Shown: positions 20,812 to 51,309 of the stretch, in pieces
Layout of the letters: every line of letters begins with the position of its first letter
How positions within the stretch are numbered: the stretch's first letter is position 1
Source of the DNA: Pisolithus tinctorius
Lineage: Eukaryota; Basidiomycota; Agaricomycetes; Boletales; Pisolithaceae
DNA: 64,000 nucleotides
Reading direction: 5' to 3'
Assembly: GCA_024663395.1 (NCBI GenBank)
Contig: JANFAH010000027.1
Span: forward strand, 802,234-866,233
The notes under the pieces: model-generated
Seen by the model: the letters and a program-made list of their open reading frames with translations, nothing else
What the model was told of the DNA's origin: nothing
Database searches by the model: none
Position numbers and translations under genes: made by a program

Positions 20812-23800
20812 ATGGCTCCCGGGTGTTTCAGTGGATTATGGTGTCTACGGCGGTCGCGTTCTTGGGTTCTGAGCGACGACACAGTTCCACAGGTCTCCTT
20901 TCCCGTTGAAGCTACTCAACCCGGCACGCTTCAGCAACACAGACGTTCACGTTCTTGCGTTAGTTGGAGTTGCCGTCTAGGTTCCCCATCCGGGGGTCTC
21001 AGCGGATTATGGTGTTCACGGGCACCTCGAGCTAGGAGTGGCTACAAAGCCACTTCACAACCTCGCACACCCACTGAAGCTACCCAGCCACGTATGTCCC
21101 CAGGAAATGCAGTGCATTGTGCTAACCGAAGTTACCGTCGACCTCCTCCAGGTAATGCAGATGTTCGCGTTACCACCACGCCGATCGAAACCACTCCTCC
21201 ACCTTCTCACCCTAACGCTAGCATGGTTACAGATGTTCTCGCTCCTGTGCCTGCTCAGGGTGATTGCACGTCTACTTCTATATGTCTTTTCACGTATCTG
21301 CTGACGCTACTTACCCAGGTTTTTTGCCAAATAGTACTGGTGCCCTCGTCCCTGCGTGCACTGGAGACATACCCACAGGCATGTTATACAAGTTGTGACG
21401 AATGAGAGAAGTCTAACTTTAATAACCAGAGACAACCTTGTTCCGGTCTGGTTATCAACTAGATTCTACTGTAGCTAATCAGCCGGGTGTGCTGGGAAAT
21501 GTTTACATTCATACTCGTGCACTGACTGAAGTTACTGTCTAGATACTCCTCCAGGCAACAAACATATCTCTATTGGGGCATCGATTGAAAACACTCGCAC
21601 ATGTTCTCTCCCTAGTCGTAGTGAGATGTCCATCTCTGCCCCACCTGCGGAAACTGCTTGCCCAGGTTCTCCACCAAGTAGTACAGGCATTTCTGTCGCG
21701 ACTGAGGCTCAAGCTATGGACCTACGTTCTCCCGGAGGTGATGTGGACACTCCTGATCTTGTGTGCATGGGTGACGTTTCTTCAGGTGCAGGTTTTACTT
21801 GTGATAAGCGAGACAAGTCTAACAATAATAACAAGAGCTATCCCCTTCGTGGCCCGCCTATTATCTGGATAATGCAAAAGCTAAGGAGCATGTTGATCGT
21901 ATTCACCGTTTTCGTGTCCTTGTCATTGGTAGAGCAAATGCTGGGAAAACAACAATCTTGCAGAGAGTTTGCAACACTACGGATCAACCAGAAATTTTCG
22001 ATGGAGAAGGACACAAGGTATGCGTGATCCACTCTGTACTTCCTTCAGATTAATGATATGTTGGGCTATATTCAGGTGGATCCCACTCTTGTACAGGGTT
22101 CACTAAAGGTGAGGTTATCATCTGGAGTATGATGCAACATACCATTGAGTGGGTCCAGCGTGGCTACCACAACATTGAGGATGAATTAGTCTTTCGGAGT
22201 AATTCACGCTTTGTATTCCATGACTCACGTGGGTTTGAAGCTGGAAGTGAAGAGCAGTTTGATAAGATGAAGGAATTTGTGATGGATCGTGCCAAGACTG
22301 CCAAACTAGACAAGAGAATACATGCCATCTGGTAAGTGTGACATGAGTGGCTTGTGTTGGCATATCTAGTGATTGTAATTTAGGTATTGCATCCCATTGA
22401 CTGACAGTCACAGGATGGTTACAGCTGCTGAAACAAAGTTTTTTGAAGAATGTGATACAGGGCATGGTGTGTAAATATACATATTCTCTGTGTGTGACTA
22501 TACAATGTTTCTTTTTTTGTCACAGTCCCTGTGATTGTGCTGCAAACAAAGGCTGATAGCTTAGAGCTTGAGGCTGTTCAGCAGCTCGAGCAGGAAGGGT
22601 TGAGCATAGATGATGAATCAAGGGAAGCAGCGTTAGCAAAAGAGATCCTGGATTACCATATTGCCAAGCTCAAGCATTGGTTGGATTTCTGCAGGTTTCC
22701 ACCTCATGACTATTTGACACTCACTGGTAGGGATGCCATATATTATCATTACTCTGGCCAACCACTCAACAATCACTGCAGGAATGGATGAAGAGGGTGC
22801 AGATTGTACACCTTTACTAAGGTGCACAGCAAATGCTCTGAGGGAGGAAGGGCTACAAAAACTCCTCATATCAACACAGCAGTCTAACCTGGGACTGTGC
22901 ATTGAATATACTATAATGGAGTAAGTTGTGGATATCAACACATAAAACATACTGACAAGTGCAAGGGGGTTGAAGGGTGCTATGAAGGAGTATGGCCAGT
23001 TGGAACCTGAAAAACTCTCAGTGCTCCTTATATCATGGTTTCCATATGTAAGAAAATACTGTTGTGTTTGAATGAGATATACTCATCAGTGAATAGTTTG
23101 TGGGTAAAATTAGGAATGTTTATTTGATACATTCTGACCATGTTCATTGGCACTGGTGGACTTGGATTCATAGCTTGTGAGTGGAATCATGGCAGTGGTG
23201 GAGGATGTGTGCTGACCTTGTTCATTGATATGTGGGTGGGCATGACTTTACAGTGGGTGAGCAGAGTCATGGAAGGTGGAGAGGGATGCTTGCTGACCAT
23301 GGCCACTGCTACCCTGGTGGGCTTGATGTTGTAGGGAGTGAGTGGAGCCATTGTGGGTAGAAGTGAATGGATGCTAACCATGTTCACTTCTACCATGCTG
23401 GACTTCAATTCATAGGAGGTGAGTGGTGGCATGGCAGGTAGAGAAGTATGTTGACTATACTCCTTGCAAACTTCTTGGGGATGGGTTGATAGGATGTAAG
23501 TGTATTCATCACAGGTGGCTGGTGGATGCATGGTAACCATGTTCATTGCTACCTTGGTTGACTTTCTTAGTATGTAAGTGGAATCATGAAAAGTGGTAGT
23601 GGATCATGCTAATCATATTCAATGTCATTCTGATGGACTTGGGTTCATAGCTTGTGAGTGGAGACATGACAAAGTGGTGGCTACAAACTGTTGATGTTCA
23701 CTGCCACTGTGGTGGACTTGGGGGTCATAGAAAGTGAGCAGAATCCTGGCAGGTGCTAGTGGGGGATGGATGCTGACCATGTTGACTGACATACTATTGG

Positions 23801-26579
23801 ACTTTGGCTCTTAGCAAGTGAGTGGAGTCATGGGAGGTGAGGGTAGATATGTGCTGACCATATTCACTGCTGTCCTGATGGACTCATAGTTGGTAAGTGG
23901 AGGTGTGGGATGTGGTGGTGGATGTGTGCTGACTGTGTTTCTTGCCACCCTGATGGGTGTAGCTGGTGAGTAGGGTCATGGCAGGTGGTGGATCATGCTG
24001 ATTATTTCCACTATTGCCCTGATGAACTTGGGTTCATAGCCAGTGAGTGGAGTCATGGAGGGAGGTGATGGAGGGACACTAATCATCTTCACTGCTATCC
24101 TGGTGGATGCCATAGGGTGTGAGTAGACTCATGGCAGGTGGTAGAGGATGCATACTGACCATGTTGACTGCTACCCTGGTGAATTTGAGTTCATAGGGAG
24201 TGAGTGAGGTGATGGCAGATGATGAATGAATGCTGATAATGTTTTTCTGCTCTCCTGGCCTTGGGTTCATAGTATGTGAGTGAAGTGATTGCAGCTGATG
24301 GATGTGTGGTGACCATGTTTACTACCACCCTGGTTTACCTGGCTTCATAGGAGGTGGGTGGTGTCATGGCAGATGGTGATGGATGCATAGTAATGATGTA
24401 TGTTTACCACCACCAATGGACCTGGGCTCATAGAATGTGAGTGTAGCAATGATGGGTAGTGGGTGGATGCCTGCTGACATGGTCACTACTACCCTAATGG
24501 ACTTGGGTGCATAGCTTGTAAGTGGAGTCATGGCAGGTGGTGGTGATCATACATACTGACCATGTTCACTGTCCTCCTGGTGGATGTTGGATGATAGGAT
24601 GTAAGTGTAGTCATGACAGGTGTCAGGTGGTGAGCAGTTGAATGCTGACCATGTTCATTGTGCCCTGGTGGATTTGGTGCATAGCCAGTGAGTGGACTTA
24701 ATATATCTAGTGGTGGCTGATTTATACTGATCATGTTCCCTGCACTCTGTTGGACCTGCATTCCTAGCTTGTGAGTGGAGGCATAACAGGTGGTGGATGC
24801 ATGCTAACCATGTTTATTGCCACCCTGATGGACTGGGGTTACAGAAAGTGAGTGGAGTCATGACAAATGGTAGAGAATAGGTGCTAACCATGTTCATTTT
24901 TACCTGGATGCATTGGGGTTCATAGGGAGTGAGTGTGGTCTTGGGATGTGGCAGTGGATGGATGCTGACCATGTTGACTGACATGCTGTTGGACTTGGGT
25001 TCATAGCAAGTGAGTAGAGTCATGGCAGGTGATGCATGCTGACCATGTTCATTTCTACTGTGATGGATCCATAGGTTGTGAGTGGAATGATGGGAGGTAG
25101 TGGTGGATGCATTCATGCTGATTATGTTCACTGCCACTGTTTTGGATTTGGATCCATAGCCTGTGAGTAGGGTCATGAGGTGGTGGAGGATGCATGCTGA
25201 CCATTTCCACTGTTACCCTAATGGACTTTGGTTCATAGGATGTGAGTGTAGTCATAACAGGTGGTGGGTACATGCATACTGACCATGTGAGCTTACTGCT
25301 ATCCTGGTGGGCTTGGGTGCATAGCGAGTGAGTGCTGTGATACTAGCAGTTGATGCATGTTAACCATGTTACTATCACCTTTGTGGACTTGGCTTTATAG
25401 AAAGTGAGTGGTGTTGTGTTGGTGGTGGATACATGCTTACTTTGTTCTCTTCCACCTGATGGGCTTATAGGGTGTAAGTACAACAGTCACAATAGGTGTT
25501 GGGGGATGCATGCTGACCATGCTCATGCCACCCTGATGTGCTTGGATTTACAGCTTGTGGGTGCAATCATTGCAGGTGGTACATTCATGCTGACCATGAT
25601 CATTGCCACCCTGGTCTTTGGTTCATAGCAAGTAAGTGGGGTCATGGCAGATGGCATTGGATGGATGCTGACTATGTTCACTACCACTCCCATGGGCTTG
25701 TGTTCATAGGCAGTGAGTGAAGTCATGAGAATTGGAGACATGAAGTTCATTTTCACACTCCTCTTGACCTTACTTGCCATCCTATTGTGCCTTTGATATC
25801 AGGTGGTGAGTTTTGCACAATATTCATGCTGACCATGTTCTTACCTCTAACAGATGGTGAGATTTCTTAATGCATGCATAGAGTTTTTTTGATTCTATAC
25901 AGCCATTTAGGATGTAGGTGGACATAACTCTTGAAAATTTCTCTGAGAATTATCTCACCCCATACATCTATCAGGATGTTAGTGATCATCATGATTGCAG
26001 ATTGATAACAAGTGCTAATTTATTCTGTGCAGATGGCAAGTTCCAATCTGAATTCAGCATGTGAGAATTGCTAACAAGGCTTTCAGTTGGTTTGTAGCAC
26101 TCCTGTTCCTATTAGTTTGGCTTTTAGGGTTCAGGATATACTTTTCAGGTCGTAAGTTTTCTCTCATTTCTTCCACCATACATGCAATAGGTGTTTGCAT
26201 TGTACTAGCCTGCCATTACCCATCAATACCAATCCTCTGAACATGCCTACATTGTCTACCTCAAAGAAATATTCAATGAAATTTGTTGTAGAACATGGGA
26301 TTGGTGAGTGCACATCTCCTCATCATTGTTTAATAATATTACTCAAGATTGTAGGTTGCACACTTGTATTTGAATATTTGTACTTCCTGTTGCAGGCCAG
26401 ACAAGGCAGGGAGTCATTTTCAGGCAGACCTGACAGTTGCTGTCACAGAATACCAGACATCAGGTGCCCAAGCTAATGTTAACCAACACATTGAGGCAGC
26501 CTTTCAGGAGTATGGTGAAGATGTGGAGACTTTTATGTCCCATTCTTGTGGATATTGCCAGGGAAAACCAGATGTGTAA
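20812..26579 (+). CDS. HSR1-type GTPase with about 40 single-codon exons (copy A)
   Basis: Starts MAPGCFSGLW at 20812 by match to copy B; exons up to 21837 (Pro/Ser/Thr-rich N-terminus) are not fully resolved. Resolved exons: 21838-22017, 22076-22108, 22159-22331, 22384-22466, 22526-22726, 22782-22920 and 22966-23047, then 40 exons of 3 nt (23097-26151), then 26209-26303 and 26396-26579. All phases close. GTPase motifs: G1 GRANAGKTTILQR, G3 DSRGFEAG, G4 TKAD. LLISTQQSNLGLCIEYT and ISWFPY follow, as in the mushroom family of such GTPases. The exon after the array reads EHAYIVYLKEIF and the last exon TVAVTEYQTS. The protein probably binds and hydrolyses GTP; its cellular role is unknown. A one-base difference from copy B shifts the last few residues. 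Confidence 0.8.
23097..26151 (+). repeat. Array of 40 three-nucleotide exons separated by tandem intron units (copy A)
   Basis: Each unit is a full small intron: donor usually GTGAGT or GTAAGT, branch site CTGAC or CTAAC within TGCTGACCATG, and acceptor TTCATAG. Exactly 3 nt lie between each acceptor and the next donor. The first exons are TTT 23097, CTT 23174, TGG 23254, GGA 23335, GAG 23416, GAT 23493, TAT 23571, CTT 23651, AAA 23731, CAA 23815. The last are GCA 25710, GTG 25803, ATG 25854, GAT 25911, GAT 25974, TTG 26087 and GTC 26149. Intron bodies up to about 25710 are alike (70-81 nt); later ones are unrelated in sequence, 48-110 nt. No triplet is a stop, and the upstream exon ends on a codon boundary at 23047. 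Splicing itself is inferred, not observed. Confidence 0.8.
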
Positions 26580-28686
26580 GCTACAGATTGCCTCTGCAGT
26601 CCATTAGAAATTGACTCTGTATTTTAACAAGCAAAGAAGTTCTTGAAATAGGGGAAGATGAATCATTTGATCTTTCAAGGGGTTGACAGATGAGAAATAT
26701 CAATACTTTGATGTGAACAGAAGATAATTCTGAAGACAAATGCAAAATATTATATTCTGATATTGTGTGATCTGTTTCACATAACTTTATTTTGGAGATG
26801 CCTCAGAGTGTCTGACAAAATATATACTTGTATCAAATCTGGTCCCCTTCAGTCCAGGGGTCAGAATTCCAGAGGTCAGGAGCCAGCTCTGTGGCCCAGA
26901 ACATGAAGTGGTGTTCCAGAGGTAGGGGGTTGGATGCCAAGGGCCAAGGGTGGCTGAAGCCAGTTGTGCTAAAGCACAGGCTGTCCAACAGAAGGTGGAC
27001 TGGAGGAAACCACAAGACCAAGGACCAGTGTAGTAGGGGAGCCAGGGGCAGATGAGAGGAGCATAGCCACAGAGAACTTAGTCAGCAAGGGCAGAGCATG
27101 GACAAGGGGGCATGAGTAGAGATGGGTTTTCACATGGTGTGTATCATTGATGATGATTAGATTCCACTGCTTCATCTTGGTGACAAGAGTAGCATCAACC
27201 CAAGCAGCACTAGATGCACAAATATACCATATCACTGTACTGAAACACCATACAGACACTGTACTGACATCACAGACTGCACACCAGGTGACCACATGGT
27301 TTACGTGTGTGTTCAGTCCAGTTTGTCTCTGGTTGTGAGGCCAATCCAGAGTCCAGGTCAAGGGGTTGAAAGGGTCAGGATACTAGACAGGTGGACTGTT
27401 GGACTTAGTAACTGAGTGAGCAGTGCTATTCCCTTGCATGGGCTGTAGTCCAGTTGAGAGACAGAGGGCAGGAAGTGTCTGGGTTTAGAGACAAGACTAT
27501 ATTGATTTCAGACTGAGGGGCTAGACAGAAGTATCTACAGCTTAAATACTGGAGGTAAGCTAAGTGTAATGTAGCACCAGAGACTGGTTACACCAGTGTG
27601 AGTCAAAGTGAGGTTCAGTGGTGTAAACCAACCAAAACCAACACAAAAGACAGTAGAAGTGAGTGGTGGTGTGCCTCTGCAGTACCCAGATGGCAGAAGA
27701 TCTAATTTGGGCAGTTTTTGCAAGATACAACACTCAAAGATGAGTGCTGAGGGTTGGGGGTGCTCCTGATGAAGAAGGGAGCAAGAAAGTGAGAGATTGC
27801 AAAGGGGTTGACTGCTATCAGCCTACAGAAGGATGGATGATGACTTAATTCAATGTTCTAAGCTATTCTGAGCCCAGGAAGGTCTGGATGTGAAGCTGAT
27901 TGATGGTAGGTGGCAATAAGCAAAGTAGATGGCAGTTAGACCCTTGATAAAGCCTCAACTACTGAAGCTGATGAATGAAATACTTTGATAGATGAAGAAA
28001 TGCAAGCAAGAGGGGCTCTCTGATGTCTTCTTCCTTGTCAACTATCTAAGTACAGTGGTTTATATACAGTACAGGGGCATTGCCTATGGAAAACAAGGTG
28101 CAAACACTTGGTAAGTGATTGGTAACTGATAAGTAAGGAATGTAAGTGGTGAGTAATTGACTTAGAAAGTGTTGGTGAGCACTGGTAAGGATAATAAGCA
28201 AAAAAGTGAAGAATCAGTAAGCAGAGCCAAAAGATTGGTAAGTATTGGCAATAAGTGAGTCAAGGGCAGTTAAAATATCAAAGTATGAGTCAAGGATTGT
28301 CAGAAACTGAGTAAGCACGCTGGAATCACATTAAGAGGAGGCTGCACATGTCACATCTTGAAGGAATTGCTTCTAGGCCAAGGTGGGATGACAGAGAGAC
28401 AGTGCTGATCTGATGCCAATATAGGACATCCATAAAGGGACAGCAGGTGTCAGGTGTCAGCTCAAGCTTTGGGGGTCTGTGGGGTGACAGGAGCATAGGG
28501 GATTGCATTCCCCCCCAACTGTCCTCTCAGTAAAGCAAATAAGACCATCATGAATGAGACTCTGTTGGAAGAGAGGACAAATGGGGAGCATCTTCTGCTG
28601 TATCTTGCAATAAGAAGGCAAGATGCGCATCATAGTCATCATGGATACAATTAGAGAGAGCAGAGAACAGTAGATCATACTGTAGC
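26580..28686. other. CpG-poor non-coding DNA with an inverted repeat arm
   Basis: No gene recognised. 27590-27910 is the reverse complement, with divergence, of about 36690-36380, for example the stretches reading CAGTGGTGTAAACCAACCAA and GGGGGTGCTCCTGATGAAGA. This continues the large palindrome outward from the two GTPase copies toward its centre. Confidence 0.6.
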
Positions 28687-29097: not shown

Positions 29098-32000
29098 CTA
29101 AGGCTCGACTTCCAGGCAAGACCAAATAGGACAAATGGTAGTAAACGGTTCTGGCATGGGTGTGAACAAGCTGTCAAAGCTTTCTGACAAAAGGAGAGAT
29201 AATTTACGGGGTGCCCCAGGGTGGGATTGATAGAAATCCTTGATCACCAACTGTGAATTCTTCAAGGCAGAGGCTGGCTCCCAAGTATGATCTTCTTCAG
29301 GGTATCCCCTCCAATGCACAAGGAATTGAAGAGCTCCACATTTCAAATGGGAGTCGACAACATATTCAACCTTGTACTCAACATCTCCTTCATCAGTAAC
29401 CCTCTGTGGTCCAGGCCTGTTGACAGGCTGCCCATCAAGAGCACTGAGATAGGGTTTAACCTGTGAGACGTTCACAACTGGGTGAATCCTCATGTTGTGT
29501 GGTAGTTTTAATTTAAGAGCATTTGGAAGTGCCTCTAGAACTTCATACAGTCCAATCCACTTCTCGGAGAGTTTACAGTGTAGGGAATAAGTACTCCCTA
29601 CTGAGGTGATTTAATTATTTTATCTTTTCTATTGTGTTTTTGCTTTGATTTACATTAGTGATACTTAGCCTACCTTTGTGGCGCATTTTTGGTAGCTTAG
29701 TCAGCATTTTTTGCGCACTAGTGTAGGTCTACAGTACACAACAAAAAAAAAAAGAAGAACCAGACAGCGAAGACTGCAAAAATCAAAGACTACGAATGAA
29801 AGTCAGCGAAAAGCCCTCTCAGAGGCACCCCTAGACGACCCTAGATGCAATCCTCCACTCTTTTCATCACTCCATTCCTTCTGACCAACTCCAGTCACTC
29901 ATTTGACTCTTTTCACTGATCCAAGCTCAGAGTTCCTTTGGGTTGAACTAGACCCTGTTCTATCAAGCCCTAGGAGTCCCCAGCACTCCCTAGCATCACT
30001 TAATAACTAACTTACAATGGCTCTGCCATTCTTTCAAGGACAGATGGTCTGTAGCTAGCCAGACCTGAGATCCAACAGAGTAGGAAGGGGCAGACAAGCA
30101 GCATCTATCTGCTTGTTGCTTCTGCCAGGAACACACTTTGGTGAGGTTTGCCTTTATGTCCTGGGACACCTGGAACCAGGATTTGGCAACTTCCTCTGCT
30201 GCTTCTACCTTTGATGTTGTCAGTTTGACACCCATCCTAGGTCTATAGGATCAAGTAACTTCAAAGGGGCACTTGCCAGTAGAAGATGAGGCAGAGTTGT
30301 TGTATGCAAACTGAGCCAAAGGTAGCCATTCCTCCCAACGAGCCTGTTGTTGGTTGGCATACATCCATAAATACTGTTGAATCTCGCAGTTCAACTGCTC
30401 TGTTTGTCCATCCATCTGTGGATGGAAAGCCATAGAGAGTTTCTGTTGTACTCCCAGCATTTTAAATAGTTCCTTCATGAAGGAGGAGGCAAACTGTGGG
30501 CCTCTGTCTGATACAATAGAGTCTGGAAGTCTGTGATGTTTCCAAACATGCATCAGGTAAAGTCAAGCTGTACTAGCAGCTTTTTCTTCCACAGTGCAGC
30601 AGATGAACTCTGCTTCCTTAGAGAATCTATCAACAATGACCAGGACATGGGACTTCCCAGAAGATCCCTTGACTCCAAGATCCATAAAGTCAGTCATTAA
30701 TTCTCTCCAAGGCCCATCAGGGACAGGTAAAGGTTTAAGTTCTCCTGCAGGCAGCCTATTTCCAGACTTGCTGGTTTGGCATGTTTGGCAATGCTTCACA
30801 TACTCTTCTACATTGGGCTTTAAGGTGGACCATGTGAACCAGCATGTGATTAACTCCTGAGTTCCTTTTATTCCACAATGTCCTGTTAGGGGAGAGTCAT
30901 GTAGAGCATTAAGTAGCTTCCTTCTAAGTGCACTAGGCACCCAGACTTTTTCTCCATTGTAATGAAGACTGCCTCGGAGCTCGCATCCAGCAGGGACTCC
31001 TTTGGCTTTAGTGGATTCGATCTGCAAATCTTCCATGAAGGGATTTTCTAGCTTTACCGAGTGAACCTGACTTGGATTTATAAATAGGAACTCTTCCAAC
31101 TTTGCCCTTTTTTTTCCTTCTACAAAGTCCTCTTGTCTCAACAGGGCATCTGGCCTTCCCATCGTGACTCTGGGCTTGTGAACTATAACACAGTTAAACT
31201 GACTAAAGTACTGTGCCCAATGCGCCTGGCATGGTTGAAGCTTCTGTGCAGTCATAAACCACTTGAGGTTGTGGTGATCTGTCCAAATTTCAAACTGGTA
31301 TGGAGTAGCCTCAAGGTAATGATGCCATTGTTCAAGTGTGTGGATAATGGCCAGCATTTCTTTGTCATGAACCGTATAGTTAAGTTCAGCCCCAGATAGA
31401 GAGTGACTAGAGTAGGCAACAGGTCTCCAGAGACTGTCATCACATTCTACCGAGAGCACTGCTCTGGTGGCATAGTCTGAAGTGTCCATCTCTAACTGAA
31501 ACTTCTGATCCTGATTGGGGAACATAAGGATAGGGGCAGTAGTAAAGGCTTCTTTCAGCATGTCAAACGCCACTTGACATTTGTCATCCCAAACGAATGG
31601 AAGGTCCTTCTTCATAAGGTTATTTAGGGGTTTCGCGATCTGTGCGAAGTCCTTAATGAATCATTGGTAGAAATTCACTAGGCTGAGGAAGCTGCAAACT
31701 CCATGAACATTGGTAGGTACGGGCTAATCCTGCACAGCAGAGATTTTGGCAGGGTCCATATGTACTCTGTTAACACCAACTATCATTCCTAAAAAGTCCA
31801 CCTCTTGCTGACTGAAGATACACTTCTGTGGCTTGACAAACAAGTCATTTACCTTTAGCCTTCTAAGCACCTCCAGCACAATCCTGTTGTGTTCCTCCTG
31901 ATTGTCCATTTTCGTAAATATCATTAGGTCATGGATGTAGATGATGAGCACATCTTCCATATCACCAAAGATGTCGTTCATCATGTTCTGGAATGTGGCA

Positions 32001-33785: not shown

Positions 33786-33788
33786 GTA

Positions 33789-38179: not shown

Positions 38180-40664
38180 AACCTACATCATGTCCATGAA
38201 AGCAAATATGACATGAGAAGAGGTGGTCACAAACCAACTGTGAATCTAATCAGACTTCACTGTATGTCAAATTCAGACAAAGACTACTACATCCTACATA
38301 AAATGTATCAGTGGCTGTCAAAGATGCAGAATGGTGATGCTTACTAACATGCTGGTAGATGTGGTTGGGGACAAAAGGGTCAAAATGATATGCATAAAAG
38401 GTGCACATACATCCTGGAAGATTGGGTGAGACAAGAGATCTCAAATGCTTACATTAGTTAACCTCACCATCTACACAATATTGACAAACTAGTAAGAGAA
38501 TACAGACAGCAACTGAAACTTACTTGCTATGATTCCAATGGAGATACATGTAAAACAGTGAGTGTGCACCAACTGTCATCTGTTCATGGCTACACTCACT
38601 GCCTATGAATGCATCAAACTTGATCAGTGTGAATCCAGCACCAGCATCCATGGTTATACACACAGGCTATGGATGAGGTCCAACAAAGAAGCAGTGAACA
38701 GGTCAGCATCCATACACCATCACTTCTCAGCATTCCACTCACAAGCTACAAACCCAAATCCAACAAAGTATCAGTAAATATGGCCAGCACACCCCCCCAC
38801 CACCACCTGCAATGACTCCACTCACTGCCTATGAACCCAAGTGCAACAGAGTGGCAGAGAACACAGTTAGCAGGCATCCACTACCACCTGTAATAACTCC
38901 ACTCACTCCCTATGAACCCAAGTCCAACAGAGTGGTGGTGAACATAATCAGCATGCATGCACCACCACCACCATCACTCCACTCACCAGCTATGAACCCA
39001 GTGCAACATAGTAGTAGTGAGTGGCAGTGAACATAGTCAGGGTGCATCCAGCACTATATGCCATAACTCCACTCACTCCCTATGAACCCAAGTCCAACAG
39101 AGCAGCAGTGAACATAGTCAGCATCCATCCATCCACCACCACCACCACCACCACCACCAGGCATGACTCCACTCACCAACTATGAACCCAAGTCCAACAG
39201 GGTGGCAGTGAACATGGTCAGCATCTATCCTCCTGCACCATGACTCCACTCACTTGCCACTGAACCCAAATCCAACATGGTAGCAGTGAACATGGTCATC
39301 ATGCATCCACCATCACCTTCCATGACTCAACTCACCCACTATGAACCCAAGTCCAAGAGTGGCAGTGAACATGGTCAGCATGCATGCCCAACCATCTGCC
39401 ATGACTCCACTCACTCTCTATGAACCCAAGTGCAAGAGTGGCAGTGAACATGGTCACCATGATTTCCCAACCACCTGCTATGACTCCACTCACTTGCTAT
39501 GAACCCAAGTCCAACAGGATGTCAGTGGACATGGTCAGCATGGATGCCCAACCACCCACCATGACTCCACCCACTTGCTATGAACCCAAGTCCAACAGGG
39601 TGTCAGTGGACAAAGTCAGCATGCATTCACCACCACCTGCCAAAATGCCACTCACTGCCTATGAAACCAAGTCCACCAGAGTGGCAGTGAATGCAGTCAG
39701 CATGGATTCCCCACCACCTGCCATGATTTTGCTCACTGGCTTTGAACCCAAGTCCAACAGAGTGGTAGTAAACATAGTCAGCATCCATACCACCACCAGC
39801 CATGACTCCACTCACCAACTATGAATCCAAGTGCACCAGATTGATGGTGAACATGGTCAGCATGGATCCACCACCATCTTCCATGACCCACTCACTCCCT
39901 ATGAACCCAAATCCAAGATGGTCAACATGGTCAACATGCATTTGCAACCACCTGCCATAACTCCACTCACAAACTATGTACCCAAGTGCAAGAGTGGCAG
40001 TGAACATGGTCAGCATCCATCCAACACCACCTACCATGACTCCACTGACTTTCTATGAACTCAAGTTCAAGAGTGGCAGTGAACATGGTCAACATGCATG
40101 CACCATCACCTGCCATGACTGCACTCACCAACTATGAACCCAAGTCCATCATAGTGACATTGAACATAGTAAACATCCATGCACCACCACCTGCCATAAC
40201 TCCACTCACTCCCTATGAACTCAAGTCCAACATATTAGCAGTGAACACAGTCAGCATGCATGCACCACAACCTCCCATGACTCCACTCACAATCTATGAA
40301 CCCAAGGGCAACAGAGTGGCAGTGAACACAGTCAGCATGCATGCACCAACACCTCTCATGACTCCATTCACATACTATGAACCCAAGGCCAACAGAGTGG
40401 CAGTGAACATGGTCAGCATGCATCCTCCATCACCTCCCATGACTCCACTCACATTCTATGAACCCAAGTCCACCAGAGTGATAGTGAACATGGTCAGCAT
40501 GGATCCACCACTGTCTGCCATGTCTCTACTCACACACTATGAACGCAAGTGCAACAGAGTGGCAGTGAATATGGTCAGCATCCATCCTCCACCACCTTCC
40601 ATGATTCCACTCACTTCCTGCTGAACCCAAATCCAATGTGGTGGCAGTGAACATGGTCATGATG
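38180..40664 (-). repeat. Single-codon exon array of copy B, downstream part
   Basis: 33 micro-exons on the minus strand, from GAA 40615-40617 down to GTT 38180-38182. Repeat introns read GTGAGTGGAGTCATGG at the donor side and TTCATAG at the acceptor. One unit lost its usual acceptor and uses an AG 3 nt upstream, giving the 6-nt exon TGGCAA (39254-39259), still in frame. The last units are CAA 38524, ATG 38468, GAT 38411, CAT 38349, GAT 38291, TTG 38235 and GTT 38180, with unrelated introns of 52-59 nt. The final ATG, GAT, TTG and GTN exons correspond to copy A. Confidence 0.8.
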
Positions 40665-40669
40665 TGTCC

Positions 40670-41387
40670 TGTCATAACCGCGCGTTCGTCATAGGTCTTT
40701 ACTCACTCCGCAACCTTTTCCGCCGGTCATTCGTTCACTCCGCACCAACTCCGCCCACCTTCTATCGTCTACGAACCATCTCCACTCCGACTGTTGTCGG
40801 ACTTGTGTTACTCTCCTACCGGACCGAGCGGTCCGTTCTCTGAGGGGTCATGTGACTACCTTCGCAGTCAGGTACTCCGCAGCGCGCTCACCGCGTGGTC
40901 CAGCGCCTGGACTGTTTCCTTTTCTGGATGTTCTGTGTTACCCGTTCGTATGTCCTCCGTCTACCCTTCATTCCGTCGTCCAGGAAATTTTACTTGAAAA
41001 CTTATGAGTCTCCATATGTCAGTTCCGATTCCGGTTACTGTACCTCCGTAGTAGTATAAAAACATTACTGTACTCCGCTGTTCTTCAGTACGAATATCAA
41101 CTTAGTTCCTACTCCCTCTGATTCCGTCTTCTGTCTGTCGGAGTTATCTCCGACTCTCCGTCTGTACTCTCCCTCTGAAATACGAGGGCTTGAGATCGTG
41201 CAAGGGGGTAGCGCACGAGCTAAACCCGACGCCCTCACTCCAGCTCCGCCTTTGTCTCGGCGGTCTTCGTTCCTGCCGACACTCCGCTAGTCGGAGTTCT
41301 GTTCTTCTGTGTCGGACTTGCTTCCGGAACCCCTCCTCTAGACCTTATATAGCGTCGGAGTTGGTCGGAGTAGGCCCGGACTTGACA
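40670..41387 (+). repeat. 5' LTR of the younger retrotransposon
   Basis: 718 bp. Close to the 3' LTR, with scattered substitutions and several one- to three-base indels. A TATA-like motif (GTATAAAA) lies near 41055. Confidence 0.9.
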
Positions 41388-41447
41388 GTATATTCGTACT
41401 CACACTTGTACGATCTCCTTTTCTGTCTTCCAAAAACTTACGCCATT

Positions 41448-44400
41448 ATGGAACTCGAGCTCAATCCCAGAGAGAGGTCGCTGAGAACCTCGCTGTAGCG
41501 CTAGCTAATCCAGCGTCGACTTCCCTTCCGTCGTTCGAACAATTCCAATCTTTCTCCGCTCGACGCCGCTCTCGCGCTGAAGGCGAAAGCGCTTCAGCAA
41601 GCTGGTCGCTCCGACCTCCACCCACAACTTTCCATACTCCGTCTCCTCGATAACCGAGGTGATGGACCCGACCCCGACCCTGACTATCCTGATGGTGATC
41701 CCGAATGGCGGGGGCAGCGGTGACGGGGATGTCCCCGAAGACCCGGCTGAGCCGCCAGAGGATCCCCTCGTAGCTCTTGCTAGAGCTGTCCATGCACTTG
41801 CGCGGTCTAGTTCGCGCACTGGGGACTCCGCTCCGAAAACCAAAGTCCGCGAGCCTGACACCTTCGACGGCTCCGACCCCTAAGAAAGCTCCGCGAGTTC
41901 CTCGTTCAATGCGAGCTGAACTTCCAAGACCGCCCTCGCGCATTCCGCTCCGACAGAGCAAAAGGTTACCTTCGCTCAATCTTATCTTAAGGGTATGGCC
42001 CTGGCTTGGTTCGAGCCAGATTTGCTAAACCCCGACAACTATGACCGCCCGCTCTGGATGGACGACTACCATGAGTTCTTACAAGAGCTCACAACTAACT
42101 TTCGGTCCGCATGATGCCATAGCGGATGCCGTCCAACAACTCGAGAACCTACCATGAAGGATGGGTCTCGAATTACTAAATACGTCGTGGAGTTCAATCG
42201 CTGGGCTTCACAGGTCAAGGACTACGGTGTCGGTGCACTCCGCCACCGCTTCTATAGCGGACTTCCAGACCGCATCAAGGACGAGATCGCTCGCGTCGGA
42301 AAGCCTTCTACCCTCGCACAACTCCGCGAACTCGCTCAGACCATCGATGCGCGCTACTGGGAGCGCAAAGCAGAGATCTCGCGCACCACCAAGTCCGCCT
42401 CCGACAAGTCGCAGTCCTCCAACTCCGACAACAAAAGCTAAATCGTCGTCCTCCTCGTCCTCCGCTCCAAAGTCCGACGCCAAGGGCAAGGGCAAACAGA
42501 AAGATCCGCCCAAGTCCGACGCGTCCAAGTCCGATATTGCCCATCTTCTGGGTAAAGGATGGCAAACTCACCTCCGCTGAACGCCAGCGCAGGATGAAGA
42601 ATAACCTCTGCCTCTTCTGTGGCGAGGCTGGCCATTCCGCCAAGGACTGTCCCAAGTCCACCTCTCGCGCAGCCAAAGCCCGTGCAGCTATGGCTGAAAC
42701 TCCGCCTACTCCGCCTGCGGAGAAGGCAGAGTCAAAAAATTAGTCCGCTCCTCCAGGGAGCTCGCACAGCCTGGAGGAAGCGTTGAACCCAACTGTGCGC
42801 AACCGGACATCCGACTCAACGCGTCCGCTCTTTCTAGTCCCAATTCTTTACTTCCGTCTGTAACTCTTCCGGATTATTCTGTTGATACTGTTTCTGCGTT
42901 GATCGATTCTGGTTCTTCTCATTGCTTCGTAGACCCGTCTATAATCAAAAAATATGACATTCCTGTTTCCTCCGTTTCTCCGCCAATTCCGCTCCGCTTG
43001 TTTGATGGTAGTACAAATGCTGTCATTTCCCAAGAAGTAGATCTTTCCCTCCGCTTTCCTTCCGGCGATGTCAATTCCGCTTCATTTTATGTTACTCCGT
43101 TGGATTCTTCATGTTCGCTGGTATTAGGACACAACTGGCTCACCCGCTTCAATCCGTCGATTGACTGGGTACTGGGCAGTATATCGTTCAAACCATCGCT
43201 ACAGGGAATGCCGACAGCCCCAGGCGCCTTCGTCACCTTCCGCTGCGACCTCCGCTCCGGATCCGACACCCTCCGCTCCGTTTGCAGCTCCGACTGCATC
43301 TCCGACAGACTCGCCGCGCTCCGCTCCGCTCGTCTCACTCATCAATGCTGCTGCGTATGTCAGAGCCTGTGCTCTCCCTGGCTCTAGACAGTTCCGCTTA
43401 CAGCTCTCCGCTGATGATGTGAAGCTTCGTGCGTCCTCCGCTTCATCTCCGCCTCCTGACCTCTCCTCGGTTCCTTCTGAGTATCACGAGTTTGCCGACG
43501 TCTTTAGTAAAGACAAGGCCACTGAACTTCCGCCACACCGCTCGTTCGATCTCAAGATCGACCTCGAGGAAGGAGCTTCTCCGCCCATTGGTACAATCTA
43601 CTCTCTTTCTCCGCCAGAGCTTGAAGCTCTCCGCACCTTCATTGACGAGCATCTTGGCTACGGTTTCATCAAACAGTCCACCTCCGCTCACGGTGCCCCT
43701 GTCCTCTTCGTGAAAGAAGAAGGACGGTTCACTCCGCCTCTGCGTAGACTATCGAGGACTCAACAAAATCACGAAAAAAGATCGCTATCCGCTGCCGCTC
43801 ATCTCCGACCTACTCGACTCCCAAGCCGCGCTAAAGTCTATACCAAGATCGACCTCCGCCATGCCTATCATCTGGTCCGCATAGCAGACGGAGATGAATG
43901 GAAAACGGCTTTCCGCACTCGTTATGGTTCTTACGAGTGGCGGGTAATGCCATTCGGTCTGACTAATGCGCCTGCGGCCTTCCAGCGGTTTGTTAATAGC
44001 ATCTTTGCAGGACATGCTCGATGTCTGCGTCGTGGTATACCTCGATGACATCTTAATCTATTCGCAGGACATGGAGTCGCATCGCGAACACGTAAAAGAG
44101 GTACTCCGCCGCCTTCGAAAGCATGGTCTTTATGCCAAGCCAGAGAAGTGCGAGTTTCACTCCGACTCCGTCGAGTACCTCGGTTATGTTCTTTCTCCCT
44201 CCGGTCTCACCATGTCCGCTGAGAAGGTTCAGGCAGTCCGCGACTGGCCTGAGCCGCGGAAGGTGCGAGACATCCAGTCTTTCCTTGGTTTCGCAAATTT
44301 CTATAGACGATTCATTAATAACTACTCCGACATCGTCGTTCCGCTCACTCGCCTCACGCGAAAGGGTGCTCCTTGGAACTTTTCCGAGGAGTGCCGCTCC

Positions 44401-46462
44401 GCTTTCCTCCGCCTGAAGGATGCCTTCAGCTCCGCTCCCTATTCTCACTCATTGGGTCCCTGACGCTCCGCTTACAGTGGAAACTGACGCCTCCGACTAT
44501 GCCATTGCTGGCATTTTGTCGATCACCTGCTCCGACGGTGAACTCCGCCCAGTCGCTTTCTACTCCCGCACCATGACCGCGCCAGAACTCAACTATGATA
44601 CCCACGACAAGGAGCTGTTGGCTATCTTCGAGGCCTTCCGCCATTGGCGGCATTACTTAGAAGGCTCCGCCTTACCTGTCGACGTGGTGACGGACCACAA
44701 AAACCTTGAGTACTTTTCTACCTCTAAGGTTCTCACTCGTCGACAGGCCCGCTGGTCGGAGTACCTTTCCCAGTTTAATCTTTCCATCCGCTTCCGACCT
44801 GGCCGCTTAGGAGCCAAACCCGACGCACTTACGCGACGTTGGGACGTCTACCCAAAAGGGGGGGATAGGGACTACGCGCAGGTAAATCCTCACAATCTCC
44901 GCCCTATGTTTACACAGGAGCAACTCGCGTCGTCCCTCCGTACCACCACCCTCATGGCACCTGTGCTCCGCGCCGCCATGGTCTTCGATGTTGAGTGCTT
45001 GCACTCCGACATCATCTCCGCCCTACCATCCGATCCCTGTCTCCGCCAGCCATCTCCAACTCCGACTAAGCCTCGGTGGTCCCTGGACTCCGACGGTCTA
45101 CTCCGCCTTGACGGTCGTATCTTTGTCCCTGACATTGATGACCTCCGCCTTCGAGTGCTTCGGTTCAAGCATGATCATCCTCTAGCAGGCCATTTCGGGC
45201 AAAACCGCACCCTAGAACTCGTCCGCAGGGACTACGTGTGGCCCAACCTCCGCTCCGACGTGAAAGGAATACGTCAGGTCTTGCACCGCCTGTGGACGGA
45301 GCAAAACTCCGCGTCACCGCCCTTATGGTCTACTGAAGCAACTCCCCGTCCCAGAGAGACCTTGGAACTCCATCTCCATGGACTTCATCGAACACCTCCC
45401 CAACTCCGATGGCTACTCCGCCATACTCGTGGTAGTGGACCGCCTCTCAAAGCAAGCGGTGTTCATCCCCACCCACGACTCCGTCACCTCCGCCGAACTC
45501 GCTAAGCTCTTCCTACCCATGTCTTCTCCAAGCACGGAGTACCAGCTAATGTCACCTCCGACAGAGGTCCTGAGTTTCGTCTCACACTTCTTCCGCTCTC
45601 TAGGAAAGGCCCTTGATATGCGTCTTCACTTCACTTCGGGTTACCACCCAGAAGGCGATGGCCAGACCGAGCGAACGAACCAGACCCTCGAGCAGTACCT
45701 TCGTGTCTACTGTAACTACCAACAAGACAACTGGGCTGAGCTGTTACCTCTAGCGGAGTTCGCTTTCAACAACGCACCAAGTGCGACTACTGGAGTTTCT
45801 CCCTTCTTCGCTAACAAGGGATACCATCCAAACCTGTCTGTGGTCCCTGACCAAGACTTCACCTCTCCAAGGGCTCACGACTATGTCGTCGAGCTCTCCG
45901 CCCTTCATGACTTCCTCCGCTCCGAAATGTCCGCCGCTCAACAGCGCTACCAGGGTCCAGCAGATGCTAAACGCATACCTCCGCCTGAGTTCAAGGTCGG
46001 AGAACAGGCCTACGTCAAAGCCAAGTACTTCCGCTCCACTCGTCCTTCGGAAAAACTCTCCGAAAAGTACTTAGGTCCGTTCACCATCTTGGCCAGGCCA
46101 GGTACGCATTCTGTCACCCTTAAGCTCCCTGACTCTATGCGCTCGGTACATCCGGTCTTCCATGTCTCACAACTGGAAGCCGCAGCGGCTAACCCTTTCC
46201 CAAACCGACAACAACCTCCGCCTCCGCCAGTGGATGTCGATGGTGACCTTGAGTACGAAGTATCAGAGATACTCGACTCTAAGGTGGACCGCCGTCGCCG
46301 CCACTTGTCAACTCTTGTATCTAGTCCGCTGGGCTGGTTACGAGAACACCGACGAAGAAACCTCTTGGTTGCTTGCAACTGAGCTAGATCACGCTTCCGA
46401 CATAGTATCCGCTTTCCATGAACGCTATCCACACAAACCTGGCCCGTACCAACCTCCGCCAT
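41448..46462 (+). pseudogene. gag-pol of the younger retrotransposon, several frameshifts
   Basis: Recognisable parts in order. Gag KYVVEFNRWASQVKDYG (42180). Zinc knuckle [14 protein letters not shown] (42610). Protease ALIDSGSSHCFVDPS (42897). [21 protein letters not shown] (43850) with intact active site [12 protein letters not shown] (44035). RNase [16 protein letters not shown] (44480). Integrase [12 protein letters not shown] (45180), [14 protein letters not shown] (45375), SDRGPEFVSHFF (45558) and YHPEGDGQTERTNQTLEQYL (45650). Chromodomain YLVRWAGYENTDEETSW (46320). The frame changes at about 41.5, 41.9, 43.25, 43.75, 44.04, 44.46, 45.28, 45.53 and 46.3 kb. Catalytic residues are kept, so the breaks are recent or are sequence errors. 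Confidence 0.9.
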
Positions 46463-46994
46463 AATACTCCGCCCTACATAAACTTCCTCCGCTGGCCAAC
46501 TCCGCCCTCTTACCGAACTACCTTAAGTACTTTAGAATTTTCTCCGCTTATCCGTTTCACTTCTCAGAGTCACGAACAAAAATCACAAGTCTATCTCGTA
46601 GTAGTACAAAAATATACAAACTAAAGACAAAAAAAAAAAAAGAAAAGAAAAGAAAACAAAACTACTCTACTCTTCCATCGCTTGTTCTCCGCCACCCTCC
46701 TGTTCTTCACCGCCTTCCTGCTCTCCTTCGACTTCTTCCTCGTTATCCCCCTCCGCACCTTCATCCGCTTCCTCTCGTCTTGTCCTCCGCCGCCTCCGAC
46801 TGAGGCCTCTTCCATCCTCCTCCTGCGCGTTCGAACTCGGCCACTCTGGCCTCACGCGCATCCTCCCTTCTCCTCATCTCCGCCCACTCTGCCCAGGCGC
46901 GGTACAGCGCCCACTCGTCGGCGGTCCGCTCTGCAGCCTCCGCCATCCGCTCCGCTGCCTCTGCCCATCCTCTCGAAGGCACAGCGCAGCGGTC

Positions 46995-47459
46995 TCATGC
47001 GCTTCGGCCTGCCCTCTCCATGGCCTTGCAGCTGTCTTCTCCCTCTCCCCACTCCACCCACCGCGTGTGGACTCCCGCGCTGAGGGACCCTCGAGCGGGG
47101 TCGCTGGCTCGTCGCTTCTCCGCCTGACTCCACCCCCAGCTCGTATCAGCTCCTCCGTCTCCGTTCGCTCTTGCCTTCACCTTCCCTCGCGGCTTCTTCT
47201 TTTTTCTCCCCTCGGGAGCTTCCGGTACTGCCTCTTCTGCGAGGGTCCCGCCGCCGCCTCTTCCTGCATCCAACTGCAAGGTCTTCTTTTTGTTGGGACA
47301 GGGCACGCAGGCCTGCGTCTTGCCTTGCCCCGGCTCGCACGCCCCGCCGTCAGACTCGCTAATACAGCGAGTGCAGGGGGCTCTTTGGTCGCGGTGACCC
47401 ACCACGGAGGGCCCCATGGGACCTTCTGGGCGGTGTTGACATCGTACACCGCGCCGCAT
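46995..47459 (-). CDS. Antisense cysteine-rich ORF inside the younger retrotransposon
   Basis: Open frame of 154 codons opposite to the element, between the chromodomain and the 3' LTR. It contains APCTRCISESDGGAC followed by TQACVPCPNKKK, a CxxC pattern that could bind zinc, then a basic low-complexity tail. An upstream exon is likely: AG precedes the start and a donor lies near 47520. It may be an accessory protein of the element or a chance frame in GC-rich DNA. Confidence 0.4.
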   Translation of the reverse strand: MRRGVRCQHRPEGPMGPSVVGHRDQRAPCTRCISESDGGACEPGQGKTQACVPCPNKKKTLQLDAGRGGGGTLAEEAVPEAPEGRKKKKPRGKVKARANGDGGADTSWGWSQAEKRRASDPARGSLSAGVHTRWVEWGEGEDSCKAMERAGRSA

Positions 47460-48097
47460 AATCTAAGAAATAAAAGACTGCGAGTCAGCTCCGCCTGACT
47501 CACAGCACTTCCGCCACTCACCTCTCTGTGCGGCCTCGTCTCGCCTGGCCTGAGCCCTCTCCTCAGAGGCCCTCTTGCCTCTGCCTTTCTGCCTCCTCCT
47601 CTGCCGCCTTCTTCCTTCGGCCTCCTCTTCCTCCTCCGCTCTCTCCTCCGCTCCGCCTCCAACCTCTCCTCCTCCGCCTTCCGCCTCTTGGCCTCCTCAC
47701 GCTTGGCCTTGCGCTCTGCTTCGCGTTCTCTCTCTCTCCGCTCGGTCTCCTCTCGTGGGCGCGCCTTCTCCGCGGACTTCTCCCGACTCGGTGTCGGTGG
47801 AGTCGTCAGGTGAGGACGACCAGTTCTTCATCCGCAACTTGAGAAGTAGTCGCGGACGTGCCGGGGTTGCTGGGGGGTGTTGCTCTGGCGCTGGGAAGGC
47901 ATGATGATGGGAAGGAAAGGACGAAGGTTCAGTACCCTAACACGTGTTTTTAAGCGGTACTTCGAACTCCGACGGAGCTCCGCCGCGGCTAAAGCCATTA
48001 TCCTCGAGGCATCAAAAGTAATTTCAAATGATCAACTCGTGTTGATCTCGTTCCGTACATGCGGCCTTCAGGGGTTCAGGCCCTAAGGGGGGGGCAC

Positions 48098-48816
48098 TGT
48101 CATAACCGTGCGTTCAGTCATAAGTCCTTACTCACTCCGCAACCTTTCCGCCGGTCATTCAGCTCACTCCGCACCAACTCCGCCCAACTTCTGTCTGTTT
48201 ACGAACCATCTCCGCTCCGACTGCTGTCGGACTTGTGTTCCTCTCCTACCGGACCGAGCGGTCCGTTCTCTGAGGGGTCATGTGACTACCTTCGCAGTCA
48301 GGTACTCCGCAGCGCGCTCACCGCAGTGGTCCAGCGCCTGGACTGTTTCCTTTTCTGGATGTTCTGTGTTACCCGTTCGTATGTCCTCCGTCTACCCTTC
48401 ATTCGTCGTCCAGGAAATTTTACTTGAAAACTTATGAGTCTCCGTATGTCAGTTCCGATTCCGAGTTACTGTACCTCCGTAGCAGTATAAAAGCATGTAC
48501 TGTACTCCGCTGTTCTTCAGTACGAATATCAACTTAGTTCCTACTCCCTCTGATTCCGTCTTCTGTCTGTCGGAGTTATCTCCGACTCTCAGTCTGTACT
48601 CTCCCTCTGAAATACGAGGGCTGAGATCGTGCAAGGGGGTAGCGCACGAGCTAAACCCGACGACCCTCACTCCGCTCCGCCTTTGTCTCGGCGGTCTTCG
48701 TTCCTGCCGACACTCCGCTAGTCGGAGTTCTGTTCTTCTGTGTCGGACTTGCTTCCGAACCCTCCTCTAGACCTTATATAGCGTCGGAGTTGGTCGGAGT
48801 AGGCCCGGACTTGACA
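48098..48816 (+). repeat. 3' LTR of the younger retrotransposon
   Basis: 719 bp direct repeat of 40670-41387, following the polypurine tract at 48083-48094. Confidence 0.9.
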
Positions 48817-48821
48817 TGTCC

Positions 48822-49163
48822 ACCATCACCTTCCATGACTCCACTCACTAACTATGAACCCAAATCCAAGCAAATGGCAATGAACATGATCAGCATGCAC
48901 CCACCACCACCTTCCATGACTCCACTCACTGACTATGGACCCAAGCCCAACATAGTGGCAGTGAACATGGTCAGCATGCATCTGTCACCACCCACCATGA
49001 CTCCACTCACTTGCTATGAACCAAGTCCAACAGAGTGGCAGTTCAGCACACACTGACAACCACCCACCATGACTCCACTCACATACTATCCAATAAAGGC
49101 CAGCCACAAGGAACAACCACATTGAACATGAATTCCACACAACAATGTATTTGACTTCACACA
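48822..49163 (-). repeat. Single-codon exon array of copy B, upstream part
   Basis: Five micro-exons in the direction of the gene: TGT 49161-49163, TAT 49083-49085, CAA 49011-49013, TCA 48930-48932 and TTA 48849-48851. Introns have the same donor, branch and acceptor pattern as the part at 38180-40664; the array is split by the retrotransposon. Confidence 0.78.
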
Positions 49164-51309
49164 CTTTCTGGTGGTTCATTAGTGTCATATTCATTCAACA
49201 CCCACTTTCCTTACAAATGGAAACCATTGTGACAGTTTCAATGCCAGTTCTGTAGGATCTATCTCGCTCCTCTTCATGTACCCCTTTAATGTTCTTGCTG
49301 CTCTCAGTACATTCTTGACAGCAAGCTAGCAAACCTTACCACTAACCTCAATATAGCATATTCAATACACAGTCCCAGGTTGTTCTGCTGTGTTGATATT
49401 AGGAGCTCTTGTAGCTTTTCCTCAGTCAAGGCATTTGCTGTGCATGTTAGTAGGGGTGTGCAATCTCCACCTTCTTCATCCATGCCTGCAGAAATTTTTC
49501 ACCTGTTTAGCTACTCTCCATGGAATGTATTTGGTACTTACCACTAAGTGGCAAGTAGCACTGAGGTGCAAATTTGAACCCATTCAACCAACCCTTGAGC
49601 TTTGCAATATTGTTATCCAGAATCTCTTTTTCCAGTGCTGTCACACTTGTTTCATCTACAGTCAACTCTTGGTCCTCAAGCTGTTCAATTGCCTCCAGCT
49701 CCAAGGCATCTGCCTTTGTTAGTAGTACAATCACAGGCACTGTCAAAAAACAAAATTATAATACTGCAAAACATGAAGCATGTGAATATAATATACACAC
49801 CATGCCCTGTATCACACTCCTCAAAGAACTTTGTTTCAGCAGCTGTGACCATCCTGTGGATGTCAGTCAATGGAATGCAGAACCTAAATCAATCACCAGG
49901 GGCATGTCAGTATGCAAGTCACATTGCTTATGATGGCCTCACCAAATGGCATGTATTCTCTTGTTTAATTTTGGTGTCCTCGCACAATCCATCACAAAGT
50001 TCTTCATCATGATGAACTGCTCTTCACTTCCAGCTTCAAATCCACATGAATCATGGAATACAAAGCATGGATTACTCTGAAAGACCAGCTCATCCTCAAT
50101 TTTGTGGTAGCCCCGCTGAATATATTCAACAGTATGTTGCACAACTGTCCACAAAAACCTCACATTTAATGAACCCTGTACCACAGTAGAATCTAGCTGA
50201 ATACAACCAAACTTATTGTTAATCTCAAGTATGTATCATGCATATTCCATACCTTCTGTCCTTTTTCATCAAAAATTTCTGGTTGATCTGTAGTGTTACA
50301 GAGCCTCTGCAGGATTGTCGTTTTACCTGCATTTGCTCTGCCCATGACAAGGATGCGAAACCGATGAATACGATCAACATGCTCCTTAGCCTTTGCAGGA
50401 TCCAGGCAATTGAAAGGCCGCAAAGGGGACAACTCTGGTTATTATTGTTACACTTGTCCCACTTGTTCACAAGTAAAATGCACACTCGAAGATACTTCCC
50501 CTGTGCTCATAGGACCAGAAATATCTGCATCAACTTGGAGGGGATCTGTATGATTCAGTAGAGAACTTCAGTGGATAATCTTGATGTGAAGAGGTATGTG
50601 TGTGTGCAACCACCTTGAGTACCTTCTGAAGTGGAACTGTTCACAATACTACAGCCAGAGGGGAATGTGGGCGAATGTCCACAATGCCTGGGAGAATATC
50701 TAGATTGTAACTCTCATCAATGCAAGAATGTGAATGTATGCATGGCTGGGTGATGTACCAGGTTGATTATCTTCAGCAGGATCCTCTAGTCGATAGGAAA
50801 GCTGGGAAGAGGACAACTCTGCTTACTGGTGTTAGACTTCTCTCAATCGTCAGAAGTACTACACTCACCCCTTGATATTTCTCCAGCACTCCTAGTGAGA
50901 GAGTGTGAACTCGTAGTTTGATCATGAGACAGCACAGGAGTAGGAGTGCTAGCACTATTTGGCAAAGTGTCTGGGAAGAGAGCTTCAGCGGACATGTGAA
51001 ATGACACGAAAGAGAATGTGTGGCTGCCTTGAGTGATGGGAGGAGCGAGACCATCCACATACATGCTGGGTGGACGAACAGTTTCAATTGGCGCGGCAAT
51101 GTCAACATCTGCATTGCCTGCAGCAGAATGTCGATAGTAATACCTTCAGTCAATCCAAGAATACCACCATCGTGCAAATCTTTGGACATACTTTGTTGGG
51201 TATCTACAGTGGGAGTGGGAACTCGTGCAACCATTGCGTCGCCGCTCCGCGCCCGAGAATGTGGTCGCCACAAATTTAGCAACAATCCGCTACAACACCC
51301 AGGAGCCAT

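Follow-up and report, generated by a model that had tools for sequence, protein, structure and literature searches.

The closest described system comes from Tuber melanosporum. Passages of PMC10197012, citing Iotti et al. 2012, describe the sensor domains of its NLR proteins as diversifiable by alternative splicing of 3-bp microexons, and passages of PMC4986451 and PMC3689799, which cite the same work, put the number of codon-sized microexons in Tuber's expanded nank family at 'multiple' and 'tens of'. Since such microexons have been described in the Tuber NACHT-ANK genes, the principle of codon-sized exon runs is not new, and the original prediction for the locus studied here, which knew of no described tandem array, has to be corrected on this point. 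The source behind these citations is reportedly Iotti et al. 2012, Fungal Biol 116:261.

In Podospora, the NWD/STAND nonself receptors HET-E and HET-D form polymorphic families with highly conserved WD repeats, hypervariable codons and concerted evolution (described in passages of PMC4986451). Microexons are present in Phanerochaete P450 genes according to PMC1184071, and the abstract of PMC11121469 states that functional microexons were undescribed in filamentous fungi. Among the papers listed by searches of a literature collection with few subscription papers, we recognised none that deals with arrays of this kind, be it in Pisolithus or in other basidiomycetes. Schistosoma micro-exon genes (MEGs) contain many small in-phase exons and give rise to variable proteins; we know of no separation of MEG exons by repeat introns. 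In fungi and algae, introner-like elements are spliceosomal introns that are present in many near-identical copies in one genome.

Here we analysed a stretch of 64,000 nucleotides of Pisolithus tinctorius DNA (the window; contig JANFAH010000027.1) that harbours a gene, gene 1, with an array of 41 triplets that are very probably single-codon exons, which would be spliced one by one and give a predicted hypervariable loop insert. The resemblance to Tuber nank lies in tens of codon-sized exons (41 in gene 1), an expanded family and an ectomycorrhizal fungus as host; for Tuber nank, passages of the cited papers propose that the microexons diversify a receptor-like protein. However, the Tuber proteins are of NACHT-ANK type, whereas those of Pisolithus are G-domain proteins without a NACHT or ankyrin match in a Pfam search at E 0.01 (4/4 family proteins). 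The Pisolithus arrays are thus a separate variant, in a different phylum and a different protein family. With HET-E and HET-D they share near-identical repeats carrying a few hypervariable codons, but the conserved repeat is coding there, while in Pisolithus it is intronic and its payload is one codon per repeat. Schistosoma MEGs likewise have many small in-phase exons, which at 6 nt and more are longer than the 3-nt exons of Pisolithus. The introns of the Pisolithus arrays are near-identical and apparently of spliceosomal type, as in introner-like elements, but among the matches listed they occur at one place in one family, in tandem and one codon apart. The features of the window are given in Table 1.

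Table 1. Gene 1, its paralog gene 2 and the inserted retroelement, in window coordinates
Feature	Position	Strand	Support or remark
Gene 1, first part, with P-loop GRANAGKTT and one short intron inside	21626..22017	+	P0001
Gene 1, G-domain exons 22076-22108, 22159-22331, 22384-22466, 22526-22726, 22782-22920	22076..22920	+	Spliced reading equals P0001; motifs HDSRGFE, TKAD
Gene 1, exon preceding the array, ending on a codon boundary with WFPY	22966..23047	+	
Leading single-codon exon TTT	23097..23099	+	
33 single-codon exons, CTT (23174) to GCA (25710), starts 68-87 nt apart, repeat-type introns	23174..25712	+	
Seven 3' single-codon exons GTG, ATG, GAT, GAT, ATG, TTG, GTC; non-repeat introns, some weak donors	25803..26151	+	
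Gene 1, first exon after the array, PAITHQYQ...	26209..26303	+	Single-base length difference from copies C24 and C4
Gene 1, last exon, C-terminal helices	26355..26585	+	Length deviates by single bases from C24 and C4
Gene 2, exons upstream of its array, ending WFPF; further ones above 50000	49210..50000	-	Protein match C27:851815-851973
Gene 2 array, first five codons K Y Q S L	48849..49169	-	
Gene 2 array, remainder, E C N Y I G L K F G L P A Q Q R W ... L G L G A L P A Q M D H ... L V	38180..40619	-	TRF period 81, 24.4 copies
LTR retroelement in an intron of the gene 2 array, outside the codon-exon system	40669..48816	+	Terminal repeats 96.3% identical, 726 columns

The public protein for the gene 1 locus, P0001, matched with 100% identity across 65% of the query and terminates just past WFPY. 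Beyond this point, the strict pattern [CT]AG-N3-GT[AG][AG]GT was matched at 36 sites in 23048-26208 and at none on the remaining plus strand of the window. Spacers of 0-2 or 4-9 nt instead of 3 gave no match in the array, and spacers of 10, 11 and 12 nt gave 1, 1 and 2; 1,000 first-order Markov simulations of the array contained the 3-nt pattern 0.24 times on average and five times at most. When weaker donors were admitted (GTTAGT, GTTTGT, one GC and others), 41 triplets between acceptor and donor were found between 23047 and 26209, made up of one leading, 33 repeat-type and seven trailing single codons. Concatenated, they read FLWGEDYLKQLLPGGYENLDPLKGQVPDRKGLQAVMDDMLV without a stop. The predicted run of consecutive 3-nt exons was therefore present, with 41 members once weaker donors are included rather than the 40 claimed. 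That none of the triplets is a stop (0/41) and that the array is bounded by codon boundaries, at the end of the WFPY exon and at the start of the PAITHQ exon, was confirmed.

The 42 introns of the array measure 48-90 nt, with a median of 75. They start with GT in 41 cases and with GC in one and all end in AG, which is partly so by construction, as the triplets were picked with such neighbours. A branch site had been described for every intron along with donor and AG, which is too sweeping: in the 60 nt next to the acceptor, 31/42 introns have a branch-like CTRAY motif and 11/42 lack one. Retention of any one of the 42 introns would lead to a frameshift or an in-frame stop.

Two near-identical genomic copies of gene 1 exist, C24 (99.6%) and C4 (98.8%). 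The three copies agree in all 41 triplets and in their splice dinucleotides, but as only about two triplet differences would be expected, this is too weak a selection test. Between 26185 and 26785, the window departs in length from C24 and C4 by one or two bases at several closely spaced sites, at which these two copies are alike. Because two 3' exons differ in length by single bases from the copies, the reading frame is lost in the window after the array, whereas the C24 copy reads through in frame. The differences in 26185-26785 reflect either decay of this gene 1 copy or an assembly fault.

We then analysed the arrays across the gene family. Codon arrays were found in 37 of the 40 G-domain family loci examined, out of about 98 exon matches; since several of these loci are near-duplicates, the 40 do not represent 40 independent cases. 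The set comprised 30 loci from the protein match, C41 (picked by unit matches), six lower-scoring paralogs (L070-L075), C109 and C4:2503k (both picked because the protein P0113 matched) and C34:114k. The three loci lacking an array (L041, L048 and L049) all derive from a single broken gene, which is rearranged and contains in-frame stops, and were rejected as ancestral array-less forms. Among the matches listed (of 971), 23 of 24 array clusters had a family exon upstream on their own strand in a by-eye comparison of the lists, the exception being C26:347k.

Acceptor-donor pairs were scanned in the first 31 fetched stretches with spacings of 0-40 nt allowed and with profiles learned from the 3-nt pairs. 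Exactly 3 nt were enclosed by 451 of the 454 pairs, and no stop was among them. Two of the exceptions enclose 5 nt and represent the 3-nt pattern two bases out of register; the third encloses 4 nt. Paralogs differ in intron subfamily, while the spacing of one codon is constant. Their arrays have unlike lengths and unlike codon sets and share, by eye, no peptide except at the ends: the last codons are alike (M-D-H-N/D-L-V by eye, similar to the M-D-... -L-V series at the 3' end of the gene 1 array), and the middle is private to each. None of the 451 triplets ends in C, and A and T are about equally frequent at the third position; the missing C is possibly a splice-donor constraint.

If the triplets are codons, stops should be missing beyond chance. 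Among 351 non-redundant triplets, left after dropping loci judged near-duplicates, there was no stop versus 26.9 expected from position frequencies (P = 7e-13); when repeats of a codon within an array were ignored in this set, the probability that none of the 57 cases has a T was 1.4e-7. A further 13 hand-listed arrays (6 overlapping the first set and 7 new, with locus L085 excluded) contained 0/349 versus 30.9 expected. These P values are overstated, since stop triplets were also below expectation in a control on the antisense strand, for which no selection is expected (7 versus 19.6 in the 13 arrays and 17/451 in the first set), which means that triplet positions are not independent. The contrast between no sense stops and 7 and 17 antisense stops nevertheless persists. 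The 351 triplets are stop-free even though GGA, AGA, CGA, CAA, GAA and AAA are common and 24% of triplets begin with T. The excluded L085 (G000:C4:2503000-2507000) is a copy of the C109 array with three TGA triplets and two units missing. Two of its TGA stand at CGA of the sister locus L084, and the third lies beyond the fetched part of L084. We judge L085 to be a decaying array, its two TGA being as expected of C-to-T change.

Support for the splicing of the codons came from P0113. This protein runs from its N-terminus to WFPNTK, continues directly with DLPPYEQPQYQQQEGETREQWYERRYQEEQEQEQQHEQEYQEQQ and ends there; its contig measures 1695 nt. In the genome of the window, its closest exon matches are C109 and C4:2502k (85-96% identical), whose DNA was fetched after P0113 was known. 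Read by single codons, the C109 array (L084) gives DLPPYEQPQYQQQEGETREQWYERRYQEEQEQEQQHEQEYQEQR. This reading agrees with the residues that follow WFPNTK in P0113 at 43 of 44 positions; the mismatch is the last residue, and the C4 copy of the array has a glutamine at this 44th position. The genomic exons matching P0113, together with the array, span C109:42582 to 47775 and on, i.e. a gene of more than 5 kb. Given a contig of 1695 nt, a spliced product is the simplest explanation, the RNA origin being deduced from length. The source label of P0113 is 'lgn', which we read as standing for Logan, an assembly of public reads. Removal of the C109 introns from RNA thus appears strongly supported by the comparison of contig and gene. 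Since P0113, from a likely transcript, joins the array codons of a relative, the gene 1 array is likely translated too.

Public gene models gave a second correspondence. P0013 carries 43 of 44 codons of C41 (H...N) in order, with one glycine absent, which may be a model error; the K in front of this stretch of the array and the M-D-H codons behind it are missing from the model as well. It was also the sole return when a composite of the peptides of other arrays (391 residues) was searched against the protein database. The window's own array peptide (spliced residues 270-325) gave 2 candidates among 5.8 billion proteins, none of which scored, so that neither a transcript nor a protein with the gene 1 array was found. 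In P0027 and P0032, array-like peptides run by eye into a retained intron (VGGVMAGG and VSRGVMDC, respectively); both are possibly partly spliced RNA. P0010 and P0012 were dismissed as further support because they did not match the arrays fetched from their contigs, and P0086 as a product of a locus here because its best-scoring exon matches were merely 60-76% identical; it seems foreign to this genome. The stop-free triplets of the non-redundant family set, the arrays at 37/40 loci and the 43/44 residues of P0113 together support the single-codon-exon reading of the original prediction for the family and make it likely for the window copy.

The arrays combine conserved introns with variable codons. 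C41 consists of 41 units with a period of 80 nt, and the mean pairwise difference among them is 0.57, 0.68 and 0.46 at the exon sites versus 0.016 in the intron; for the 22 units of C28 the values are 0.62, 0.63 and 0.52 versus 0.037. Of the 41 introns in C41, 28 are the same in every letter, yet the codons flanked on both sides by such introns are of 8 kinds. One amino acid is mostly written by one codon per array, with a choice that varies between arrays (leucine as CTT, TTG or TTA, arginine as CGA or AGA). Accordingly, pairs of synonymous codons differed in 8.7% of cases within arrays versus 25% when dealt among arrays (p = 0.0005). Point mutation with selection for changed amino acids should also leave synonymous variants, so that reshuffled codon cassettes and homogenised introns fit these data better. 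Whole-unit differences between copies fit cassette reshuffling as well: the C4:2503k array has two whole units fewer than that of C109. Otherwise these two differ at 3/126 triplet sites, 57/3070 intron sites and 0/164 splice-dinucleotide sites, counts too weak to serve as a selection test. We infer that codon cassettes are copied and reshuffled while introns are homogenised.

A second codon array was found in the window at 49169-38180, in the minus-strand paralog gene 2. It is split by an LTR element with gag-pol-like frames at 42258-46382 (by eye) on the plus strand. One spot in the larger part of this array reads as a 6-nt exon or a damaged unit. A like distance from array to upstream exon suggests that the LTR insertion is common to gene 2 and its C4 copy. 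Elsewhere in the window we observed a coding 96-bp tandem repeat of 4-5 copies at 2937-3391, within a reading frame of 720 residues, another retroelement-like frame set on the minus strand at 29098-34445 (gag-, RT- and integrase-like by eye) and two tandem copies of a 348-bp unit at 35259-35951 with 89% matches.

With respect to the protein, all that the Pfam search returned for 4/4 proteins were G-domain matches of weak to borderline strength (among them Arf, MMR_HSR1, Septin and GTP_EFTU). The G1 motif GxxxxGK[ST] of TRAFAC-type P-loop GTPases is present, GRANAGK being invariant across an alignment of 36 sequences, and the G-domain fold of this type was found. Foldseek placed immunity-related GTPases (IRG) or dynamin-like proteins among the first matches, with a TM of about 0.3 and an rmsd near 20 over the whole model, while a sequence search of solved structures with P0002 yielded no match. 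In the model of P0003, which is annotated without an array, the array position corresponds to residue 409/410, between the helices 396-404 and 432-455, and the model confidence falls there (mean pLDDT 56 at 411-420). Going by this model, the site could be a place where length and sequence vary.

How else might the arrays be explained? The triplets could be unexpressed parts of a minisatellite within one long intron, with the WFPY exon joined directly to the PAITHQ exon. Tandem repeats are common in introns, and the public models P0003, P0004, P0006 and P0011 as well as P0069 do join the exons on either side of an array directly; the P. tinctorius protein P0069 is identical to P0113 at 353/354 positions up to WFPNTK and then continues with the exon behind the array. 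Against this stand 351 non-redundant triplets free of stops, a spacing fixed to 3 nt though intron lengths vary, and codons that vary where introns do not. Moreover, P0113 and P0013 carry the codon reading, and we regard this explanation as very improbable. Scarcely probable at all is that introner-like insertions cut an ordinary exon codon by codon, leaving the triplets as an old conserved segment. Near-identical introns beside different codons would agree with such an origin, but not the one-codon spacing in 453/454 pairs (the two out-of-register pairs counted), the variation of paralog arrays in length and codon set with no common peptide by eye bar the ends, or the whole units by which copies differ. 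No uninterrupted version of the array peptide was seen, though genomic DNA alone could reveal one.

Two further alternatives accept the codons as exons. They may be used alternatively, in subsets that differ per transcript, and so act as a combinatorial diversifier at the RNA level; since all exons are 3 nt long and in phase 0, any subset keeps the frame. The annotations P0002 and P0003 are identical over 409 residues and then differ by presence versus absence of an insert, P0013 is one inner codon short, P0027 and P0032 appear by eye to enter a retained intron, and the papers named above cite the nank family of Tuber as a case in which codon-sized microexons are alternatively spliced. The P0013 gap may however be a model error, and P0113 keeps all 44 codons in order with none skipped, and we consider such alternative use rather unlikely. 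The other alternative concerns the window only: the family would splice codon by codon, while the gene 1 copy is decaying or mis-assembled and, as written, would not yield the full protein. Both 3' exons are off by single bases in length from the mutually agreeing C24 and C4, and P0001 stops shortly after WFPY, whereas the triplets and splice dinucleotides are the same in all three copies and the length differences are confined to about 600 nt, as in an assembly fault. We hold this to be quite conceivable, somewhat short of an even chance.

For codon-by-codon splicing, the following mechanism can be proposed. Each unit would consist of one intron of about 75-80 nt and one whole phase-0 codon. 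Removal intron by intron, presumably through intron definition, would concatenate the codons, and any unit could be duplicated, lost or swapped with the frame unharmed. The gene 1 copy in the window would be spliced like its relative. The near-identical introns would provide ground for recombination, by which a small private set of codon cassettes could be reshuffled, with codon diversity maintained by selection. In analogy to the nonself receptors of fungi, the likeliest use predicted for the segment is a variable, fast-changing recognition surface.

If the P0113 contig is RNA, as its length implies, the spliceosome would join at least 44 three-base exons in order, and such joining limits the requirements of exon and intron definition. 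Annotation misses codon-array genes, as a number of public models either bridge the array or end at it. As measured in C41 and C28, the arrays are a clear natural example of a frozen repeat that carries hypervariable codons. Given the cited Tuber case, our results suggest two independent origins of codon-sized exon arrays, each in an ectomycorrhizal fungus. As a tentative idea, to which we give less than even credence, these genes may employ a writing system of one codon per intron, in which the near-identical intron acts as a frame-proof spacer for recombination, each array has its private cassette alphabet to be reshuffled into new peptides, splicing is possibly combinatorial and recognition surfaces could outpace point mutation.
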